DNA of 64,000 nucleotides from Ruminococcus sp. (lineage in GTDB: Bacteria; Bacillota; Clostridia; Oscillospirales; Ruminococcaceae), in NCBI GenBank assembly GCA_017478965.1, contig JAFVCV010000039.1, positions 1-64,000 of the forward strand, given 5' to 3'. Position numbers and translations under genes: made by a program. The notes under the pieces are model-generated. The model was given only the letters and a program-made list of their open reading frames with translations. It was not told where the DNA came from and searched no databases. Shown one piece after another: positions 49,094-60,640 of the stretch (the first letter of the stretch is position 1; every line of letters starts with the position of its first letter).

Positions 49094-51421
49094 ATGGCGG
49101 ATAACAGACCAAGAGCCAGACAAAAAAATGTGACTTCCGGCGGCAGCGGCGTCCATAGGCGTGAAAGCGTCGGCACCGGCAGGGTCGGCGGCGGCAGCTC
49201 AGGCGGTCCCGGCGGCTCCGGGGGACCCAGCAGAGCGGCTATCGGCGGCGGCGGTTCGCTGCTGGTGGTGGCGGTAGTGCTGCTGATGAAGATATTCGGC
49301 GGGGGCGGCAGCGGCGGCACCGGGCTGACCGGCAGCTCAGGCGGTTCCTCGGCCTCTTTTCCTTCGGGCTTTTCACAGAGCGTGGGCAGCGGATATGTGG
49401 CCAGCGCCGGCGGTAAGGTCAATACCGACGTGGCAGCAGGGTCCAGGGCAAAGTACACCAGCATAAAGGGCGGCGGCAAGGACACTGTTACCCTGATGGT
49501 CTATATGTGCGGCACGGACCTGGAGAGCAAGTACGGCATGGCTTCCAACGACCTTAACGAGATGGCAGCGGCAAAGTACGGCAGCAATGTGAATATCATC
49601 GTTTACACCGGCGGCTGCAAGGAATGGAAGACCAGCGGCATAAGCAATAAGGTCAACCAGATATATCAGGTAAAGGACGGGGGACTGAAGTCTCTGGTCA
49701 AGGATGACGGCTCGAAGGCCATGACTGACCCGGATACCCTTTCTTCTTTCATCAAATACTGCAATAAGAATTTCCCGGCGGACCGCAGCGACCTTATCCT
49801 CTGGGACCACGGCGGCGGCTCAGTCAGCGGCTACGGCTATGACGAGAAGAACAAGAACGGCGGCTCCATGAACCTTGCGGGCATAAGCAAGGCCCTTAAA
49901 GCCGGCGGGGTGAAATTCGATTTCGTGGGCTTTGACGCCTGCCTTATGGCTACCGCAGAGACCGCCCTGATGCTCAATGACTATGCTGACTATATGATAG
50001 CCTCTGAGGAAACTGAGCCGGGCATCGGATGGTATTATACCAACTGGCTCACCCAGCTGGGCAGCAACACCTCTATGTCAACTCTTGACATCGGCAAGGT
50101 GATTATCGACGATTTCGTGGCCGAGTGCGGCAGGAAGTGCCCCAGCAGCGCCACTACCCTTTCCATCATCGACCTGGCGGAATTTGCTAATACTGTGCCG
50201 GAGGACCTGGCAGGCTTTGCAAAGTCGGTCAGCGGCAAGATAAACGACAAGGACTATAAGAGCATTTCGGACGCAAGAAACAATACCAGAGAGTTCGCAA
50301 AGTCCTCAAAGATAGACCAGGTGGATCTGGTGAACCTGGCGGACAATGTGGGGACCCCTGAGGCCAAGGAGCTGGCAGCTTCGCTCAAAAACGCTGTGAA
50401 GTATAACCGCACCTCCTCAAATATCTCGGACGCTTACGGCGTTTCCATCTATTTCCCCTATAAGAGGACCTCATATGTTGACACCGCCTGTGTGACATAC
50501 AGCCAGATAGGTATGGACGATGAGTACAGCAAGTGCATAAGACAGTTCGCAAAGCTGGAGACCAGCGGCCAGATAGCTGCCGGAGGTACGGCCTCTCCTG
50601 TCGAGTCTCTGTTCGGGGGACTGACCGGCGGTTCCAGCGGCAGCGCCGATATCATAAGCGGACTGCTTGGATCGTTCTTAGGAGGCAGCGGAAGGAGCAT
50701 CGCAGGCCTTGACAGCGGGAATACGGACTTCATGCGCAGCGCCGATATCTCCGACGATACAGCTGCGGACTATATCGCACTGAACTCCTTCGACCCTTCA
50801 AAGCTGACCTGGACGGAAAAGGACGGCAAATATACCCTTTCCCTCACTGAGGAGCAGTGGTCGATGGTACATCTGCTGGACCTGAATATGTTCTACGACG
50901 ACGGGGCCGGTTATGTGGATATGGGCCTTGATAACGTGTTCTCTTTCGAGGACGGCAAGCTGGTGGCTGACACTGAGAAGAACTGGCTGTCCATAAACGG
51001 TCAGCCGGTGGCGTATTACCATACCGACACCACCGAGCTTGGGGGCGACAAGTATGTCATAAGCGGCTATGTGCCTGTGCTCCTTAACGGTGAAAGGGCA
51101 AGCCTTATCATCAAGTTCGACAACGACAGGCCTGGCGGCTATGTGGCCGGGGCCAGCAGCGACTATGTTAACGGCGAGACTGAGACTATAGCGAAGAGCG
51201 TAGAGTCCCTTTCAGAGGGCGACAAGATAGACTTCCTTTGTGATTTTTACAGTTATGACGGCGTTTATCAGGAAAGCTACAAGCTTGGCAGCCAGATGAC
51301 CGTGGGCAAGCAGCTGACGGTATCGAACACAGATGTAGGCGACGGCGAGGTAAGGCTGATGTACAAGTTCACGGATATCTATAACCAGGACTACTGGACA
51401 GAGGCCATAAAGATCAAGTAG
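49094..51421 (+). CDS. Clostripain-type cysteine peptidase (C11)
   Basis: 775 aa. A basic, Gly/Ser-rich N-terminus of about 50 residues, one membrane helix (about 55-67), a second Gly/Ser linker, then a C11 caspase-like domain (about 130-480) with catalytic His in LWDHGGGS (H239) and Cys in GFDACLMA (C283). The C-terminal 250 residues are beta-rich and unassigned. The N-terminus is cytoplasmic and the protease domain is outside, anchored to the membrane. Family members cut after Arg or Lys. The Gly/Ser linkers are unusual in density. Confidence 0.9.
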   Translation: MADNRPRARQKNVTSGGSGVHRRESVGTGRVGGGSSGGPGGSGGPSRAAIGGGGSLLVVAVVLLMKIFGGGGSGGTGLTGSSGGSSASFPSGFSQSVGSGYVASAGGKVNTDVAAGSRAKYTSIKGGGKDTVTLMVYMCGTDLESKYGMASNDLNEMAAAKYGSNVNIIVYTGGCKEWKTSGISNKVNQIYQVKDGGLKSLVKDDGSKAMTDPDTLSSFIKYCNKNFPADRSDLILWDHGGGSVSGYGYDEKNKNGGSMNLAGISKALKAGGVKFDFVGFDACLMATAETALMLNDYADYMIASEETEPGIGWYYTNWLTQLGSNTSMSTLDIGKVIIDDFVAECGRKCPSSATTLSIIDLAEFANTVPEDLAGFAKSVSGKINDKDYKSISDARNNTREFAKSSKIDQVDLVNLADNVGTPEAKELAASLKNAVKYNRTSSNISDAYGVSIYFPYKRTSYVDTACVTYSQIGMDDEYSKCIRQFAKLETSGQIAAGGTASPVESLFGGLTGGSSGSADIISGLLGSFLGGSGRSIAGLDSGNTDFMRSADISDDTAADYIALNSFDPSKLTWTEKDGKYTLSLTEEQWSMVHLLDLNMFYDDGAGYVDMGLDNVFSFEDGKLVADTEKNWLSINGQPVAYYHTDTTELGGDKYVISGYVPVLLNGERASLIIKFDNDRPGGYVAGASSDYVNGETETIAKSVESLSEGDKIDFLCDFYSYDGVYQESYKLGSQMTVGKQLTVSNTDVGDGEVRLMYKFTDIYNQDYWTEAIKIK

Positions 51422-52971: not shown

Positions 52972-54393
52972 GTGGTTTTCGCAGATCTGTTTTTCCTGTA
53001 TTTCTACCTGCCGGTGTGCCTGATGCTTTATTTTGCCACACGAAGCATAAAGGTCAGAAATGCAGTGCTGATAATGTTCTCGCTGGTGTTCTATGCCTGG
53101 GGAGAGCCTATTTGGGTGAGCATACTGTTCGTTTCGGCTTTGGTGGACTATGTCAACGGCCGGGTCATAGAGAAATATCCCGAGAGCGGAAAGGCGAAGG
53201 CGGCGGTGGTGTGGTCGCTCATATTCAACTTAGGACTGCTGGTAGGCTTTAAATACACCGGCTTTATCGTGGAGAACTTTAACGCCGTGACCGGACTTGG
53301 GGTGAAGGTGCCGAAGATAAGGCTGCCTATAGGCATCTCGTTTTACACCTTCCAGACCATTTCCTATACTATCGACTGCTATTGGGGCAAGGTGAAGCCC
53401 CAGAGGAGCTTTGGCAGATTTCTGCTTTATGTGTCCCTGTTCCCGCAGCTGGTGGCCGGGCCTATCGTAAGGTATTCAGTCATCGGCGAGGAGATAGAGG
53501 ACAGGAAGACCACCGTCAAGGATTTCTCCGACGGCTTTTCAAGAGTGATCTTAGGCCTTGGCAAGAAGGTCATAATCGCCAACAATATCAGCACCGTGGT
53601 CACTTCCGTTTTCGGCAACGCCGCCAACAGTTATCAGAATGTGGGTTCTTTGTCAGTGGCAGGCACCTGGTACGGGGCGATAATGGTGGCCCTCTGGTAT
53701 TATTTCGACTTTTCCGGGTACTCTGATATAGCCATCGGGCTTGGAAGGATATTCGGTTTCCACTTCGATGAGAACTTCAAATATCCCTTCATCTGCCGGA
53801 CAGTTTCTGAGTTCTGGCAGAGGTGGCATATCTCCCTTTCGTCGTTTTTCAGAGACTACGTGCTCTATGTGCCGATCTTCGGCAAGAGAAGGAAATACGG
53901 CGGACTTTTCCTGGTGTGGTTCCTGACGGGGCTCTGGCACGGCGCCAGCTGGAATTTCATATTCTGGGGCCTTTACTACGGCATATTCATTTTTGCAGAG
54001 ACACTCATAGGCAAGAAGAAGATGAAGAAGATGCCGGCAGTGGCTGCACATATCTATACGAAAATAGTCATCGTGGTCGGATTTGGCATTTTCTATTTTG
54101 AAAATCTGGGAGCCCTGGGGAAATTCTTCAAGGGCCTGGTGGGCGCCAACGGAAATCCGCTGACGGATCAGTTCACGAGCCATACATTTATGAGCAATCT
54201 GTGGCTGTTCATCGCAGCGGTGTTCTTCAGCCTGCCGGTCATTCCGAAGCTGAAGGAGAAGGCTTTCAAAAAGGAGGGCACAGCCTATCTTATACAGTCT
54301 GCGGGTATACTGACCAACGCACTTATACTCGTGGTGAGCAGTCTTCTGCTGGTAAATACCACCAACAATCCGTTCTTGTATTTCAGATTTTAG
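52972..54393 (+). CDS. MBOAT family O-acyltransferase
   Basis: Membrane acyltransferase with about 11 hydrophobic segments, 473 aa. Catalytic histidine in LTGLWHGASWNF (H323); the LPQLVAGPIVRY and SEFWQRWHISLSSF regions are those of the AlgI/DltB/PatA branch, which moves acyl groups from the cytoplasm onto surface polymers. Start is GTG 52972, with GAGGAG 8 nt upstream. First gene of a five-gene cluster. Confidence 0.93.
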   Translation: MVFADLFFLYFYLPVCLMLYFATRSIKVRNAVLIMFSLVFYAWGEPIWVSILFVSALVDYVNGRVIEKYPESGKAKAAVVWSLIFNLGLLVGFKYTGFIVENFNAVTGLGVKVPKIRLPIGISFYTFQTISYTIDCYWGKVKPQRSFGRFLLYVSLFPQLVAGPIVRYSVIGEEIEDRKTTVKDFSDGFSRVILGLGKKVIIANNISTVVTSVFGNAANSYQNVGSLSVAGTWYGAIMVALWYYFDFSGYSDIAIGLGRIFGFHFDENFKYPFICRTVSEFWQRWHISLSSFFRDYVLYVPIFGKRRKYGGLFLVWFLTGLWHGASWNFIFWGLYYGIFIFAETLIGKKKMKKMPAVAAHIYTKIVIVVGFGIFYFENLGALGKFFKGLVGANGNPLTDQFTSHTFMSNLWLFIAAVFFSLPVIPKLKEKAFKKEGTAYLIQSAGILTNALILVVSSLLLVNTTNNPFLYFRF

Positions 54394-54407
54394 GCAGGTG
54401 AGGGAGC

Positions 54408-57347
54408 ATGAGCAATAACGACAAGAAAAACAATAACGAGCACAGCCATGATATCCTCGACCTGGAGGCGCTGTCAAAGGCCTATGAGGAAAGTCTCAGC
54501 GCCCTGAGCTTTGACAGTGCGCCAAAGACCAAGCCCAGCGGCAGCAGGGACCTGAGGTCCGCCAGGAGGGAGACCGACAGGCTGCTCAGGGGCGGCGAGG
54601 AGCTTAAAGACGCCAGAAGGCTCACCGAGCAGGACAGAAGGCTGGAGCAGATGCGCAAAAACAAGGAAAGGCTCAGTCACAGCGTCTGGACCAGCGAGCC
54701 GGTAGTAAAGCCGAGAAAAAGCGCATGGCTGGATAATGCCAACGATCAGGCCAGGCAGAGCGGTGAGAGAGCTAAGGCCGAAGCATCGGCTCTTGGCAGC
54801 TCAGGGACCTCTGAGCCGCTGATATTGGCCCAGCATGGCAGCACACCGGCACAGAGGCAGGCCCAGGGGGATATACTGGCTCCCCTGGTAAGGACCGGTC
54901 CGGAGGACAGCCGGGAGCAAAGGCCGGATGAAAGGACCGGCCGCCGCAGAAGAAGGCGGGAGGAGCGCTATCCGGAACAGCCGGAGTTTCGCAGCAAGAC
55001 CCAGATAACCATGAAGATACCGGACAAGACCTACAGGGAATATCAGGTCAATGCCGTGAATAATGACGACAGCGTCAGAAAGACCGTAGATCTGGAGATG
55101 CCGGCGTCGAAGATGCTTACCGAGCGTGAACTGATGGAGCGGGAACAGGCCGCCGTAAAGGCAAGGCAGGAAGAAGAGGCCCGTGCCGCAAGCAGCAATT
55201 ATGCCAGGAGCGTCATAGATGATATACTAGGTAATATCAACGCCGAGGAGGAGGCGAAAAAGGCCGCCCTTGGAACTATCAGTGAGCAGCTGGAGGCCGG
55301 GAAACAGGAGAATGAAGAGGTCGGGCAAGCTGATGCTCTGACAGACACTGCCGCTGAAGATAACGTTAAGGCAGAGGACCGTCCTGAGGAAAGCCCCGAT
55401 GAGGAGACTTCGCAGCTGCCCGGGGAAGAGGGAACTGAGGAGCCTGAGGAGCAGGCTGTACCTCAGGAGGAGACAGATACCGCTGAGCCGGCGGCTGTGA
55501 GCCTTAAAAAGGAAAATGTAAGGGTAACGCCCAAGCTGACCCCTGAGAGCGAGTACGATTTTGCGGATATGATAAGCAGGGTCAGGGCCGACAAGAAGAA
55601 AAGAGCCGCCGACGTGGCCGAAGAGGAGCCTGAAAAGGCAGACGGCAGTGAGGAGGAGCAGGCTCAGGAAACTTTGACGGAGCCTGAGAAGACCGACGGG
55701 ACTGCTGAGGACACCGAAAGGACCGCACCCGCAGAGGAGGCAGAGACTGAGGAGAACGCTGGCAGCGTAGAAAATGCAGCAGCTGCCCATGAGACGCAGA
55801 AACCCACCGAGGGACAGGGACCCAGACCTGTGCATAAGAAAAAGCGTCTCAAGCGCAGGAAAGAGAACAAGTATCACGAGATGGAGTTCAGCTTTATAAA
55901 CAGCATCATGAGCCTGGGCCTGCTCTTCACCGTGGCTGTGTCTCTGGTGGTGCTGGAAAGAGAGAGCGGTTTTATCCATTCGGAGAACAGGAACCTGGCA
56001 GAATTCCCCACATTCAGCGTGAAGTCCTATTTTGACGGACAGTTCACCAAGGGGATAACCGAGTATTATACAGATACCATTCCCGGGAGGGAGACCTTCA
56101 AGAAGTTCGGTTCGGAATTTTCAAAACATCTTGGCATTAATACTGACGATATGGTAGTTAAGGGCAGCCACAAGACTGCCGAGAAGGAGGAGCTTGACGA
56201 GGAGAAGGTAGCGGCCATCACTACCGTTACCGCTAATTTGCAGCCCAAGCCCAGCACCACCACTACTACCAGGCCCGGTGAGACCACGACTACCACCACA
56301 AGAGTATCCGAGGAGGTAGTGGAGCTGCCGGAGATCCTTGACGACGGACAGTGGGAAGGCGACGTCATAGTATTCGGCAAAGGCGAGAACGTCAGGGCCG
56401 TGGCAGGATATTACGGAATGTTCGAGTACGGCAAGATGTATGCCGAAACTATAAACAAGTGGAAGGAAGAGCTGCCGGACGTAAATGTCTACAATATGTC
56501 CATACCCACCTCTTCGGCTTATTATCTGCCCAAGAGCTTCAGAGATACTGTCTCCGACCAGAAGGATAATATCGACAATATCGCCTCGGAGCTGAAGGGC
56601 ATCATAAACGTTGACGTGTTCAATGACCTGGCAAAGCATACGGACGAGTATATCTATTCCAGGACCGACCACCACTGGCAGCCCAGGGGAGCTTATTACG
56701 CAGGCAAGGTCTTTGCGGACAAGGCAGGCATAGATTATCCAGACTTAAAGACCTATGACGAGTGGAAGATAGAAGGGTTCCTTGGGACCATGTATGCCTA
56801 CAGCGACTATGACAGCGAGCTTGCGGCCAACCCGGATACCTTTATCTACTATAAGCCCGACAACAGCTACAGTGTGACCTATTATGACACCGACTTCACC
56901 GCACCCAGGTCCGGGGACCTGTTCTTTGACTACGCCGAGGGCGTTTACTGCTATTCCGCTATACTTGACGTTGACTGGGAGGTAGCGGAGATAGAGACAG
57001 ATGTGAAGAACGGAAGGACCCTTGTCATCTTCAAGGACAGCTTCGGCAACGCCCTGGTGCCTTTCATGACCCACGGGTTCGAGAAGATATATGTGTGCGA
57101 TTTCAGGTATTTTGATAACAACGCCATAGACTTCTGCAAGAAGGTCGGCTGCACTGACCTGCTGTTTGCCATCTCTGTGACCTCCTGCGCTACCGAGATG
57201 CACATTCAGGCAATAAACAACTGCCGTGTGCAGGATAATGTTAATCCCGCCATCACCGAGGTGGAGAGCGCCGAGGTGCCGGAGCAGGCCGAATATGAGG
57301 GCGGCGAAACGACTGCCTCTGTCTCAGGCGGAAACGACGATCTGTAA
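54408..57347 (+). CDS. DHHW/AlgX-like extracytoplasmic protein with large cytoplasmic extension
   Basis: 979 aa. Residues 1 to about 490 are highly charged, low-complexity and without recognisable domain, presumably in the cytoplasm; one membrane helix follows (about 497-518). The external part has a Thr-rich linker with runs of six Thr (about 620-635) and a SGNH/DHHW domain with signature TDHHW (D754-W757). DHHW proteins accompany MBOATs and complete acyl transfer outside the cell, as DltD or AlgX do. It starts 15 nt after the MBOAT gene. The long cytoplasmic arm is unusual and could recruit the FkbH and carrier proteins. Confidence 0.85.
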   Translation: MSNNDKKNNNEHSHDILDLEALSKAYEESLSALSFDSAPKTKPSGSRDLRSARRETDRLLRGGEELKDARRLTEQDRRLEQMRKNKERLSHSVWTSEPVVKPRKSAWLDNANDQARQSGERAKAEASALGSSGTSEPLILAQHGSTPAQRQAQGDILAPLVRTGPEDSREQRPDERTGRRRRRREERYPEQPEFRSKTQITMKIPDKTYREYQVNAVNNDDSVRKTVDLEMPASKMLTERELMEREQAAVKARQEEEARAASSNYARSVIDDILGNINAEEEAKKAALGTISEQLEAGKQENEEVGQADALTDTAAEDNVKAEDRPEESPDEETSQLPGEEGTEEPEEQAVPQEETDTAEPAAVSLKKENVRVTPKLTPESEYDFADMISRVRADKKKRAADVAEEEPEKADGSEEEQAQETLTEPEKTDGTAEDTERTAPAEEAETEENAGSVENAAAAHETQKPTEGQGPRPVHKKKRLKRRKENKYHEMEFSFINSIMSLGLLFTVAVSLVVLERESGFIHSENRNLAEFPTFSVKSYFDGQFTKGITEYYTDTIPGRETFKKFGSEFSKHLGINTDDMVVKGSHKTAEKEELDEEKVAAITTVTANLQPKPSTTTTTRPGETTTTTTRVSEEVVELPEILDDGQWEGDVIVFGKGENVRAVAGYYGMFEYGKMYAETINKWKEELPDVNVYNMSIPTSSAYYLPKSFRDTVSDQKDNIDNIASELKGIINVDVFNDLAKHTDEYIYSRTDHHWQPRGAYYAGKVFADKAGIDYPDLKTYDEWKIEGFLGTMYAYSDYDSELAANPDTFIYYKPDNSYSVTYYDTDFTAPRSGDLFFDYAEGVYCYSAILDVDWEVAEIETDVKNGRTLVIFKDSFGNALVPFMTHGFEKIYVCDFRYFDNNAIDFCKKVGCTDLLFAISVTSCATEMHIQAINNCRVQDNVNPAITEVESAEVPEQAEYEGGETTASVSGGNDDL

Positions 57348-57361
57348 AGGAAAGCTTTGAT

Positions 57362-59134
57362 ATGAAAGAACTAGAGTATCCCTTTGACAGCGGATATATA
57401 ATGAAAAAGAAAAAGTCTCTGAGAAGGCAGCTGACTCTTGACACTGAAGGCTTTCAGAAAAAGAGGATAGCCGTGCTGGGCGGCTCCACCACGGCTGATA
57501 TCGTGAAGGTCCTGGAGCTGTTTTTGCTTGATAACGGCATCGAACCGGAGTTTTATGAGAGCGAGTACGGACAGTACAGACAGGACGCACTTTTCCCGAA
57601 CAGTGAGCTGGACAGGTTCAAGCCGGATATCATCTATATCCATACCAGTTTCAGAAATCTCAGTTTCAGGCCCACGCCGAGAATGTCTGCCCAGCAGATA
57701 GAAGAGGGGCTGGAGAACGAAACTGATGGTCTCAGACAGATCTGGGACAGCCTTAAAGAAAGGTTCGGCTGCCCGGTGATACAGAACAATTTTGAGCTGC
57801 CGCCCTACAGGCTTTTAGGAAATACGGACGCCTGGGACAGAAGGGGCGCTGTGAATTTCGTCACCAGGCTGAACATGAGGATATATGAGGAGATAGAAAA
57901 GCGGGACGGCCTTTATCTCAACGACATAAACTGGCTCAGCGCAGACTACGGCCTGGAGAAGTGGACGGCTCCGGAATACTGGTATATGTATAAGTACTGC
58001 CTTAATATCGACGCTATACCGGTGCTGGCTTTCAATATCGCCACTATAATAAAGGCCATTTTCGGCCGCAATAAAAAGGCACTTGCCCTGGACCTTGACA
58101 ATACCCTCTGGGGAGGGATAGTCGGGGACGACGGGGTGGAGGCTCTTGCCATAGGGCAGGAGACTGCGGAGGCCATGGGATTTTATCAGTGGCAGGAGTA
58201 TGTGAAGAGCCTTAAAGATATCGGCGTGCTGCTGACGGTCTGCTCGAAGAACGAGGAGGAGAACGCCATAGCAGGCCTTGAACACCCGGAGGGAGTGCTG
58301 AGGCCTGATGACTTCACGGTCATAAAGGCCAACTGGCTGCCGAAGTCGCAGAACATCATCGAAACCGCCGCCGAGATAAATATATTGCCTGAGGCCATAG
58401 TTCTGGCGGACGACAATCCCGCAGAAAGGGACATCGTCAGGGCAGAGGGCATCGTGGCACCGGACATCGGCGAGGTGAACGATTATATAAGGGTCATCGA
58501 CAGGTCGGGCTTTTTCGAGCCGGTGGGACTTTCAGAGGACGATCTGAGACGGAGCGAGATGTACAGGGAGAACGCTCTGAGAAAGCAGGCGCAGTCTAAG
58601 TATCAGAGCTATGAGGACTATCTTGCGGCTATGGATATGAAGGCGGAGATAGGGCCTTTCCCGGCGGTCTATATACAAAGGCTGTCGCAGCTGGCCAATA
58701 AGAGCAATCAGTTCAACGTTACCACCAGGAGGTATACGCCCTCGGAGATGGAGAGCGTGGCCCAAAGCCCGGACTATATCACCCTTTACGGAAAGCTGGC
58801 GGACAAATTCGGCGACAACGGCGTAGTCTCAGAGGTCATCGGCAGGGTAGAGGGGGAAACGCTCCATATCGACCTGTGGCTCATGAGCTGCCGTGTCCTC
58901 AAAAGGGACATGGAGTTTGCCATGCTGGACGAGCTGGTGAGAGCTTGCCGTGAAAGGGGAATAAGCTGTGTCATAGGGTATTATTACCCCACGGCCAAGA
59001 ACAAGATGGTGAGAGAGCTTTTCGGCACCTTTGGCTTTGATAAGATAAGTGAGGACGAAGAGGGGAACGCTGTCTGGAAACTTGATATAAAGGACTACGT
59101 GAACAAGAACCACGTCATTGCCGTTAACGCTTAG
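57362..59134 (+). CDS. FkbH-like HAD-superfamily protein (HAD-IIIC)
   Basis: 590 aa, cytoplasmic. The N-terminal part (about 30-230) includes RIAVLGGSTTADIVKVLELF. The HAD domain starts at ALDLDNTLWGG (motif DxDxT, D244/D246/T248) with TVCSKNEEEN and LADDNPAERDIV as later motifs. The C-terminal 180 residues resemble a GNAT-like domain. FkbH proteins of this size load a glyceryl group from 1,3-bisphosphoglycerate onto an acyl carrier protein and remove the phosphate; the carrier gene follows here. Starts 14 nt after the DHHW gene. Confidence 0.88.
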   Translation: MKELEYPFDSGYIMKKKKSLRRQLTLDTEGFQKKRIAVLGGSTTADIVKVLELFLLDNGIEPEFYESEYGQYRQDALFPNSELDRFKPDIIYIHTSFRNLSFRPTPRMSAQQIEEGLENETDGLRQIWDSLKERFGCPVIQNNFELPPYRLLGNTDAWDRRGAVNFVTRLNMRIYEEIEKRDGLYLNDINWLSADYGLEKWTAPEYWYMYKYCLNIDAIPVLAFNIATIIKAIFGRNKKALALDLDNTLWGGIVGDDGVEALAIGQETAEAMGFYQWQEYVKSLKDIGVLLTVCSKNEEENAIAGLEHPEGVLRPDDFTVIKANWLPKSQNIIETAAEINILPEAIVLADDNPAERDIVRAEGIVAPDIGEVNDYIRVIDRSGFFEPVGLSEDDLRRSEMYRENALRKQAQSKYQSYEDYLAAMDMKAEIGPFPAVYIQRLSQLANKSNQFNVTTRRYTPSEMESVAQSPDYITLYGKLADKFGDNGVVSEVIGRVEGETLHIDLWLMSCRVLKRDMEFAMLDELVRACRERGISCVIGYYYPTAKNKMVRELFGTFGFDKISEDEEGNAVWKLDIKDYVNKNHVIAVNA

Positions 59135-59170
59135 GAGCAGGCGGCAGAAATTTCGCAGGAGGTGACAAAG

Positions 59171-59413
59171 ATGAACATGAAGGAACTTAAAAAAAGACTG
59201 ACGGACGTTTTCAGGGACGTTTTTGACGATGACAGTATAGTTATCGACGAGAACACCACCGCTGACGATATTGATGACTGGGACTCCATCGAGCATATCA
59301 CCCTGATCGGCGCTGTGGAGGAGGAGTTCGGTATGCGCTTCAAGATGGGCGAGGTATCGGGCATGAACAACGTTGGTGAGATGATGAAGATCATCGCAGA
59401 GAGAGGAAAGTAA
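59171..59413 (+). CDS. Acyl carrier protein
   Basis: 80 aa from ATG 59171, with AGGAGG 8 nt upstream. The phosphopantetheine serine is in WDSIEHITLI (S39). Four-helix pattern and acidic character as in carrier proteins. Unlike the usual FASII acpP it stands beside FkbH and MBOAT genes, so it is probably a dedicated carrier, the counterpart of DltC. Confidence 0.92.
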   Translation: MNMKELKKRLTDVFRDVFDDDSIVIDENTTADDIDDWDSIEHITLIGAVEEEFGMRFKMGEVSGMNNVGEMMKIIAERGK

Positions 59414-59455
59414 GGCTTTATGAAAAAGGCCGGTATAAGCATTTGGAGGTAAAAG

Positions 59456-60013
59456 ATGGACTTCAGGCTTTGTTTGGGAGTGAGCGTGACGGGCAGCGAG
59501 GGGCTTGAAAGCAGCTTTTCGGTCTCCGGACAAGAGGTCAGGGGACTGCTGAGCGCCGAGCTGATATTAAAGTGCGCCGAGGGCTTTTTAGAGACAGTGC
59601 CTGAGCCGGTGTTCTTCTTTCTGGAGCTGCCGATGGAAAACGGCGGTGAGGGATATCAGGTCTATTACCTTGACAACTGCACCAGGGAGGTCGCCGGGGC
59701 CATTATAAAGCGCTACGGGCAGCTTCTGGCGGAGGACGGGCTTTGCAGGTTCGGCTTTGGTTCCAACAGGACTGAGGAGGAGATCTATTTCACGGATTAT
59801 CAGGAATTCTCGGTCTATAGTCTCAGCCCCGGCAAGGTCAGGGATATGCTGAAAAAGCTGGGCTGTAGGGAGACGGAGGAGCCTTCATCACTCTGGGACC
59901 TTATGAGCGATGAAGAGCCGGGGACCCTTTCAGGGATAGAGATAGAGGGGGAAACGGTGTTCGATATACCGGAAAACCTGAAGGATGCTGGAATGTACCA
60001 AGCGCAGCAATAA
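59456..60013 (+). CDS. Unrecognised protein of the MBOAT/FkbH cluster
   Basis: 185 aa, acidic, no signal peptide or membrane helix. A predominantly beta N-terminal half (FFFLELPMEN, YYLDNCTREV) and a middle stretch with ITRYGQLL-like alternation. TTGGAGG before the ATG, 42 nt after the carrier protein gene, same strand, so co-transcription is likely. No function assigned; a cytosolic helper of the acyl-transfer pathway is possible. Confidence 0.65.
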   Translation: MDFRLCLGVSVTGSEGLESSFSVSGQEVRGLLSAELILKCAEGFLETVPEPVFFFLELPMENGGEGYQVYYLDNCTREVAGAIIKRYGQLLAEDGLCRFGFGSNRTEEEIYFTDYQEFSVYSLSPGKVRDMLKKLGCRETEEPSSLWDLMSDEEPGTLSGIEIEGETVFDIPENLKDAGMYQAQQ

Positions 60014-60109: not shown

Positions 60110-60640
60110 ATGAACATCTGGCATGACATTTCATCAAAGGCCGTTAATAAGGAGAAATTCACCGCAGTGGTGGAGATACCGAAAGGCTCGAAGGTAAAGT
60201 ATGAGCTTGACAAGACTACGGGGCTGCTGAAAATGGACAGGATACTTTATACCTCTACTCACTATCCTGCCAATTACGGTTTCATACCCCGGACCTTTGC
60301 AGAGGACGGGGACCCGCTGGACGTGCTGGTGCTCTGCTCGGAGACTCTTGAACCTTTGTCCCTGGTCGATTGCTATCCTATAGGCATGATAACCATGATG
60401 GACAACGGGGCGGCGGACGAAAAGATAATCTGCATACCCTTCAATGACCCTACATACAACGTCTATAAGGATATCAGCGAGCTGCCTAACCATATCTTTG
60501 ACGAGATGAAACACTTTTTTACCGTCTATAAGGCCCTGGAGAACAAGGACACCGTCATTGACGACGTGAAAGGCCCCGATGACGCCAAGGCCATCATCGA
60601 CAGCTGCATAGACAGGTATATAGAGAAATACTGCAAATAG
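60110..60640 (+). CDS. ppa: Inorganic pyrophosphatase, family I
   Basis: Cytoplasmic hydrolysis of pyrophosphate. 176 aa with [24 protein letters not shown] and the metal-binding [11 protein letters not shown]. Typical family-I length. It follows the MBOAT cluster by 96 nt and may be partly read through from it. Confidence 0.95.

Follow-up and report, generated by a model that had tools for sequence, protein, structure and literature searches.

A predicted carrier-fed MBOAT–SGNH acylation cassette, with FkbH in place of an adenylating enzyme, in Ruminococcus and related Clostridia

In Ruminococcus sp. (assembly GCA_017478965.1, contig JAFVCV010000039.1), four consecutive genes encode an MBOAT acyltransferase, a DHHW-family SGNH transferase, an FkbH protein, and an acyl carrier protein (ACP). 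The present study suggests that this cassette forms a pathway for the acylation of a surface polymer. The window analyzed is the 64,000-nucleotide stretch at positions 1 to 64,000 of the contig. The original prediction described five open reading frames in tight succession, and all five are present in the window on the same strand, separated by intergenic gaps of 14, 14, 27, and 42 bases (Table 1). The types that it assigned to the first four genes agree with Pfam and NCBIfam matches above cut-off, although the ACP passes its threshold only barely.

Table 1. Genes and features of the window in and around the FkbH cassette
Feature	Position	Strand	Size	Family match or description
Clostripain-family (C11) protease	49094-51421		775 aa	
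MBOAT acyltransferase	52972-54393	+	473 aa, GTG start	PF03062, 78.9 bits (cut-off 27)
DHHW-family SGNH transferase	54408-57347	+	979 aa	PF14286, 149 bits, residues 526-896
N-terminal part of DHHW protein	54408-55880		~490 residues	Charged, probably disordered; precedes the membrane span
FkbH protein	57362-59134	+	590 aa	TIGR01686, 261.6 bits (cut-off 146.65), and FkbH_N PF21211
Acyl carrier protein	59162-59413	+	83 aa	PF00550, 21.2 bits (cut-off 20.8)
Fifth gene	59456-60013	+	185 aa	No Pfam or NCBIfam family
Inorganic pyrophosphatase	60110-60640			Next gene after the fifth gene

The catalytic residues of all four proteins can be located. In the MBOAT, the catalytic His323 is kept in every aligned row (45/45 MBOATs of related cassettes, 15/15 controls, and 8/8 DltB proteins), and the C-terminal hexapeptide FLYFRF fits the acyl-shuttle motif FXYXXF, with its Tyr470 kept in 45/45 cassette rows. 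The DHHW protein has Ser878 in KDSFGN, TDHHW at 753-757 (the DHH(W) block at 754-757), and DFRY (DxRY) at 898-901; by hydropathy it spans the membrane once, at about residues 497-515, with the outer catalytic domain following. Its domain matches the solved structures 4NZK (417 bits) and Bacillus cereus PatB1, 5V8D. The long N-terminal part of this protein is also found at loci L073, L076, and L086 and is short in most aligned relatives. FkbH, which has a solved relative in 3SLR, combines a TIGR01686 match above cut-off with the catalytic motifs of a HAD domain: DLDNT with Asp244 and Asp246, Ser295, and Asp350-Asp351 in DDNPAE. The DxD and DD.P.E motifs are present in all 130 distinct FkbH proteins compared, and the SC[RK] motif around the C-terminal Cys510 (MSCRV in the window) is present in 129 of the 130; we take this cysteine to be the acyl-carrying residue of studied FkbH proteins. 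The ACP likewise pairs its PF00550 match with a phosphopantetheine serine, Ser42 in DWDSIEH, which is invariant across 18 aligned cassette ACPs.

The original prediction regarded the cluster as Dlt-like, with parts of the DltB and DltD types and with FkbH where DltA would stand. That FkbH is present instead of DltA was borne out, but the Dlt designation itself fails for DltA, DltB, DltD, and DltX alike. The window MBOAT reaches 143.3 bits against the DltB profile TIGR04091, whose cut-off is 375 and on which many ordinary Clostridia MBOATs reach 150-180 bits; judged by these scores, it is DltB-like at the superfamily level only. In a tree of 114 MBOATs built by a quick method, the eight curated DltB proteins stand separate and the 45 cassette MBOATs form one clade (SH-aLRT 100%). 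With a score far under cut-off and a position in a different clade, identity with DltB was rejected. The FXYXXF motif occurs at the C-terminus of 45 of 46 cassette MBOATs versus none of the eight DltB proteins. The best match to DltA in the window's own genome, on contig C47, scores 246.8 bits, under the cut-off of 559.85, and the cluster itself carries FkbH. Only 1 of 148 genomes of the window's GTDB family passes the DltA cut-off, so that a test of mutual exclusion between DltA and the cassette gave no contrast. Pfam and NCBIfam scans of the DHHW protein returned no DltD family, only the DHHW family PF14286, and nothing corresponding to a separate DltX was seen beside the motif on the MBOAT's own C-terminus, no search aimed at DltX having been made.

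The cassette thus resembles the Dlt pathway (DltABCDX, D-alanylation of teichoic acids) in its cytoplasmically charged carrier, its MBOAT, its SGNH-fold transferase, and its acyl-Tyr shuttle motif, and differs from it in having FkbH rather than the adenylating DltA, DHHW rather than DltD, an MBOAT under the DltB cut-off, and a fused shuttle motif without DltX. According to the available part of a 2025 account, MBOATs other than DltB bear FXYXXF at their own C-termini, whereas Dlt places the motif on the microprotein DltX, and MBOAT/SGNH pathways besides Dlt lack a carrier protein (PMC12148441). The MBOAT–SGNH O-acetylation systems PatA1/PatB1 and PatA/PatB share with the cassette the fused C-terminal FXYXXF of the MBOAT, which here accompanies His323, and a DHHW-family partner with the catalytic serine and the DHHW and DxRY blocks; unlike them, the cassette adds FkbH and ACP, and its donor loop is no longer PLGG. 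The structures matched by the DHHW protein have been described, in the portion of the source at hand, as EUBSIR_00411 of Eubacterium siraeum (4NZK) and as an O-acetyltransferase acting on a secondary cell-wall polysaccharide (PatB1) (PMC9487903). Because the DHHW protein resembles 4NZK and PatB1 and the MBOAT carries the fused motif, the export half is, on these likenesses, of the PatA1/PatB1 kind, and it is the cytoplasmic half, comprising FkbH and ACP, that is new.

The association of these genes is not confined to the window. FkbH matches were found in 58 of the 148 family genomes, and the surroundings of FkbH were compared in 46 of these 58. The order MBOAT–DHHW–FkbH–ACP, on one strand and with short gaps, recurs in 16 of the 46 neighborhoods, and such ordered four-gene cassettes span 14 genera, the window's own and 13 others. 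Among named records, of which the best 80 of at least 586 FkbH loci were considered, 33 have MBOAT, DHHW, and ACP no more than five called genes away from FkbH; the others have MBOAT and ACP without DHHW (24), ACP alone (13), or other combinations (10). The full-set group comprises records of Ruminococcus, Oscillospiraceae, Neglectibacter, and uncultured Clostridia, and most records in the group without DHHW are Lachnospiraceae. Within the same best 80, the closest named relative is Ruminococcus sp. RGIG4311 (L086), with MBOAT 79% and FkbH 68% identical. The neighborhood survey that the original prediction had proposed as a check therefore shows that the association persists in relatives (16/46 and 33/80).

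One alternative is that the MBOAT–DHHW pair is an ordinary acetyl-CoA (coenzyme A)-fed O-acetyltransferase and that FkbH and ACP are co-transcribed passengers of another pathway. MBOAT–DHHW pairs without FkbH are indeed common (14/14 DHHW-paired controls), and PatB1, the nearest characterized DHHW enzyme, O-acetylates a secondary cell-wall polysaccharide, according to the same partial source (PMC9487903). Conservation of the cassette order across genera argues against this alternative, as does the donor side of the MBOAT. The comparison set 45 cassette MBOATs against 15 controls: the MBOAT on contig C9 of the window's own genome, and 14 from other Clostridia that are paired with DHHW. The top differences cluster between the conserved landmarks FRD and WHG, with 7 of 31 falling in 296-310 (hypergeometric p ~1e-5, with the region and the top-31 cut picked after the list was seen). 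Between these landmarks the controls read YIPLGGNR and the cassettes YLLYVPIFGKRRKY or near it; the window MBOAT has YVLYVPIFGKRRKYGG. Position 303 is Phe in 44/45 cassette proteins versus Gly in 15/15 controls, and two control-type arginines are lost, position 283 being Gln in 44/45 versus Arg in 15/15 and position 138 being Trp in 45/45 versus Arg in 13/15. The cassette loop aligns with the DltB stretch between the same two landmarks. In Lactobacillus plantarum, DltB residues 298-313 have been modeled as binding DltC, in the part of that report available (PMC9338922). The corresponding loop of Neisseria gonorrhoeae PatA reads YIPLGGSKKG, and the C-terminus of PatA, FIYANF, is quoted as a shuttle motif in the 2025 account, as far as its available part goes (PMC12148441).

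A census of 138 distinct MBOATs, in which carrier linkage was defined as an ACP within 6.5 kb, extends this comparison. PLGG is absent from 71/75 MBOATs linked to FkbH and ACP, 4/4 linked to an adenylating enzyme, 8/8 DltB proteins, and the single MBOAT with ACP only; it is present in 33/44 MBOATs with neither and in 4/6 with FkbH but no ACP within the limit. With L227-L234 left out, carrier-linked and other MBOATs number 84/4 versus 6/36 (non-PLGG/PLGG; Fisher p 2e-21, a value far too small given shared ancestry). Limits of 2.5, 4, 5, 6.5, and 8 kb were compared. At 2.5 kb, the rows with FkbH and ACP shrink to 19 non-PLGG and 1 PLGG, and those with FkbH only number 39 non-PLGG and 6 PLGG; the 4-kb limit gave 63/3 versus 34/38 and missed the window's own cassette, the DHHW genes being long. 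Some assignments are less clear-cut: L147 was counted with the FkbH and ACP rows, yet has an adenylating-type neighbor and an ACP of its own nearer than FkbH, and among the adenylating-enzyme rows the ACP lies beside L084, L218, and L225 and, beside L208, appears only at E up to 0.01. The donor-side loop of the MBOAT appears to track the presence of a carrier, which is indirect evidence that the MBOAT may use the ACP.

Because the loci had first been found through FkbH, the 148 genomes were searched with the cassette MBOAT profile instead. This search returned 25 MBOATs of at least 640 bits and one more, interrupted by N letters, in genome G049 (L081), 26 in all. The altered loop is present in 25 of these 26 cassette-clade MBOATs, and 24 of those 25 genomes hold FkbH, which adjoins the MBOAT in 17 of the 26; in G016, FkbH was not found by genome search, in an assembly 55% complete. 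The next-scoring lineage consists of 10 MBOAT–DHHW loci with PLGG, and FkbH occurs in none of their 10 genomes. The 26th cassette-clade MBOAT, in G113 (99% complete, two contigs), has a PLGG loop, and no FkbH was found in that genome. Its locus (L227) reads MBOAT, DHHW, a homolog of the fifth gene, pyrophosphatase, and later MraZ, the order of the window minus FkbH and ACP, and the genes upstream resemble, in their first residues and by eye, those upstream of cassettes L058, L087, L113, and L160. The G113 MBOAT is nearer to the window than to the controls except over 281-325, a segment that shares 66% identity with the window and 83% with two controls, and it has Arg138, Arg283, Gly303, and Asn305 back. 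In a careful tree from which the loop and position 138 were removed, it falls in the cassette clade (100/99) and in an 11-row subclade with the window (100/99), its exact sister within that subclade being poorly supported (62/2). Because it nests in the cassette clade even without the loop, the PLGG state of G113 is, on this tree, derived and accompanies the loss of FkbH and ACP, in a single case. This joint change, with PLGG and both arginines returning as FkbH and ACP disappear, again argues against the acetyl-CoA-fed alternative.

Recurrence of FkbH and ACP with other MBOATs bears on the same point. A second MBOAT clade joins them in Lachnospiraceae and has a different, longer insert at the loop position. 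This clade also includes cases with adenylating enzymes (the own-genome C47 locus, L218, and L225); one kind of MBOAT thus occurs with two alternative loaders, FkbH and an AMP-binding enzyme. Further afield, a tblastn search of plasmids gave FkbH matches in 117 records, of which 40 belong to Sinorhizobium. In one record of Sinorhizobium meliloti pSymB (CP140948), U8C33_12690 to 12705 encode an MBOAT, a 409-aa protein, an ACP, and an FkbH-matching HAD hydrolase, and in Rhodobacteraceae SC52 an MBOAT, FkbH, and ACP lie together; both MBOATs lack PLGG and have a C-terminal FXYXXF. The 409-aa protein is annotated as a TonB-dependent receptor and has no Pfam match; inspection by eye shows GGSTT and DPGHVY in it, together with a single N-terminal hydrophobic stretch, features expected of an SGNH-like protein. 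Judged from such motifs, it and the 350-aa partner at L110 look SGNH-like; neither matched a solved structure up to E 1. With FkbH and ACP recurring beside another MBOAT clade and in Alphaproteobacteria, we consider the acetyl-CoA-fed alternative improbable.

Collectively, gene order, the donor loop, the joint loss in G113, and the alphaproteobacterial loci make a carrier-fed route the best reading: we think it likely that the four genes form an MBOAT–SGNH pathway that acylates a surface polymer, with FkbH loading glyceryl on the ACP. Here the route from FkbH through ACP, MBOAT, and DHHW to a polymer stands much as originally proposed, shorn of its Dlt label and of the fifth gene. What the sequences themselves show is which proteins are encoded and in what conserved order, that the catalytic residues are in place, that the shuttle motif is fused to the MBOAT, and that the loop is associated with the presence of a carrier. 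FkbH would take the glyceryl group of 1,3-bisphosphoglycerate, drop the phosphate, and attach D-glyceryl to the ACP through its phosphopantetheine arm; as loading would proceed directly from 1,3-bisphosphoglycerate, no ATP-using adenylating enzyme would be needed. The MBOAT would then bind glyceryl-ACP at its cytoplasmic loop and pass the glyceryl across the membrane onto Tyr470 in its own C-terminal FLYFRF motif, and Ser878 of the DHHW protein would receive the group and esterify the outer polymer. This chemistry, and the identity of the unit as glyceryl, are inferred from family knowledge. FkbH has been described, in a source available in part and in which the assignments are predictions, as transferring glyceryl from 1,3-bisphosphoglycerate to ACPs (PMC7489565), and part of another describes it as replacing the adenylation domain in peptide synthases (PMC8949500), a position like the one it holds here. 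The pairing of FkbH with an ACP is shared with the glyceryl-loading systems of tetronates, methoxymalonyl-ACP, cystomanamide, vioprolide, and suomilide; unlike those systems, in which the loaded ACP feeds natural-product synthesis within the cell, the ACP here adjoins an export transferase pair.

Several observations weigh against this carrier-fed route. Among the 46 family neighborhoods, many FkbH and ACP pairs have no MBOAT nearby, and part of these continue into a MaoC-like gene and an SDR gene. FkbH lies away from the MBOAT in 7 of the 26 cassette-clade genomes (G015, G056, G071, G099, G103, G108, and G132), several of them on short contigs. The loop test was framed post hoc, and its counts are uncorrected for common ancestry. 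PLGG occurs despite FkbH and ACP at L088, L159, and L209 and in the second MBOAT of L128, and the MBOATs of L060, L064, L101, and L114, which adjoin FkbH with no ACP found nearby, keep it as well. Because of these FkbH-linked exceptions, an FkbH neighborhood alone does not fix the donor.

A different alternative accepts the carrier route and holds that the unit is not plain glyceryl, either because the C3 unit is modified while bound to the ACP, into lactyl for instance, or because the specificity of FkbH has shifted toward a different acyl phosphate. At L102, a MaoC dehydratase and an SDR reductase stand between FkbH with ACP and the MBOAT, and at L099 a split transketolase follows FkbH; such enzymes would remodel the unit. 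The window cassette contains no modifying enzyme, none recurs in the cassette loci, and the uses of FkbH described in the available parts of the papers cited here all load glyceryl or glycerate. We regard a unit other than plain glyceryl as unlikely, though worth keeping in view.

As to the acceptor, no polymer gene was consistent among the neighbor families common to at least 3 of 47 cassette loci, a comparison that used crude gene calling and judged family identity by one member's first residues. With no polymer genes recurring beside the cassette, context leaves the acceptor unfixed, and the set could instead make an acylated lipid or small molecule. FkbH–MBOAT loci elsewhere sit amid polysaccharide genes, and DHHW acts outside the membrane on a wall polysaccharide in the one characterized case, as described in part of its source (PMC9487903); we hold a lipid or small-molecule product to be very unlikely and favor a surface polymer.

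The prediction that no pathway of this kind had been described agrees with the open-licence literature, in which no description of FkbH joined with a surface-acylation MBOAT was found, subscription journals being mostly outside the search. One paper with FkbH, MBOAT, and ACP concerns aeruginosins, where, in the part available, FkbH charges a peptide synthase with glycerate and the MBOAT is assigned to a different step (PMC10143770). Both the components and the logic of transfer have precedents, and the way of loading appears new within that literature. There is about an even chance, in our estimate, that these loci represent a third charging route for envelope acyltransferases, in which glyceryl-ACP made by FkbH, with neither adenylating enzyme nor acyl-CoA, feeds MBOAT–DHHW export; that this route is widespread in gut Clostridia, in at least two MBOAT clades, and in rhizobia; and that one cytoplasmic loop and two arginines switch the donor between CoA and carrier, with G113 as the reverse. 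If so, a glycerate ester charged from a glycolytic intermediate would link sugar flux with the decoration of the envelope, and the modification would occur in many gut Clostridia and a plant symbiont. The FRD–WHG loop together with positions 138 and 283 would furnish a sequence criterion, testable by mutation, for CoA versus carrier donors in bacterial MBOATs. Campylobacter jejuni flagellin bears glyceric acid derivatives. An fkbH-domain gene, cj1302, is named in the available part of a paper on the flagellar glycan of that organism (PMC7099621).

Other loci show further arrangements. At L099 (7995-14527), FkbH is followed by the split transketolase, MaoC, ACP, SDR, and MBOAT, as if the C3 unit gained two carbons before export. 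Lachnospiraceae loci including L102 and L108 have FkbH, ACP, a MaoC dehydratase, SDR, and MBOAT set amid sugar-nucleotide or polysaccharide genes, and such MaoC/SDR loci could yield a lactyl-type decoration. The window's own genome (G000) carries, one after another on contig C47 (L084, 6084-11914), genes for an AMP-binding enzyme, an ACP, a pyridoxal-phosphate-dependent decarboxylase of the ornithine/diaminopimelate type, an MBOAT, and a membrane-anchored SGNH protein of 398 aa. This Dlt-like set, which may export an amine-bearing group, resembles the cassette in its ACP, its MBOAT, and its adjoining third, membrane-anchored protein, and differs in being loaded by an AMP-binding enzyme (PF00501) and in drawing its MBOAT from another clade. 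L208 (4111-8627) has a tandem pair of adenylating enzymes, a small ACP-like gene, and a short MBOAT. Two further alphaproteobacterial FkbH and ACP pairs have no adjoining MBOAT, and one of the two, in Niveispirillum, is followed by a WcbI-type polysaccharide acetyltransferase.

The original prediction counted the fifth gene as a member of the set. Among the loci compared, its relatives occur at only four (L086, L092, L227, and, weakly, L067), and membership was rejected on its persistence in G113; because it is present at L227 without FkbH and ACP, it is probably a neighbor outside the acylation set. Upstream of the cassette, the window also carries a protease of the clostripain family, with a glycine-rich N-terminal part (Table 1).

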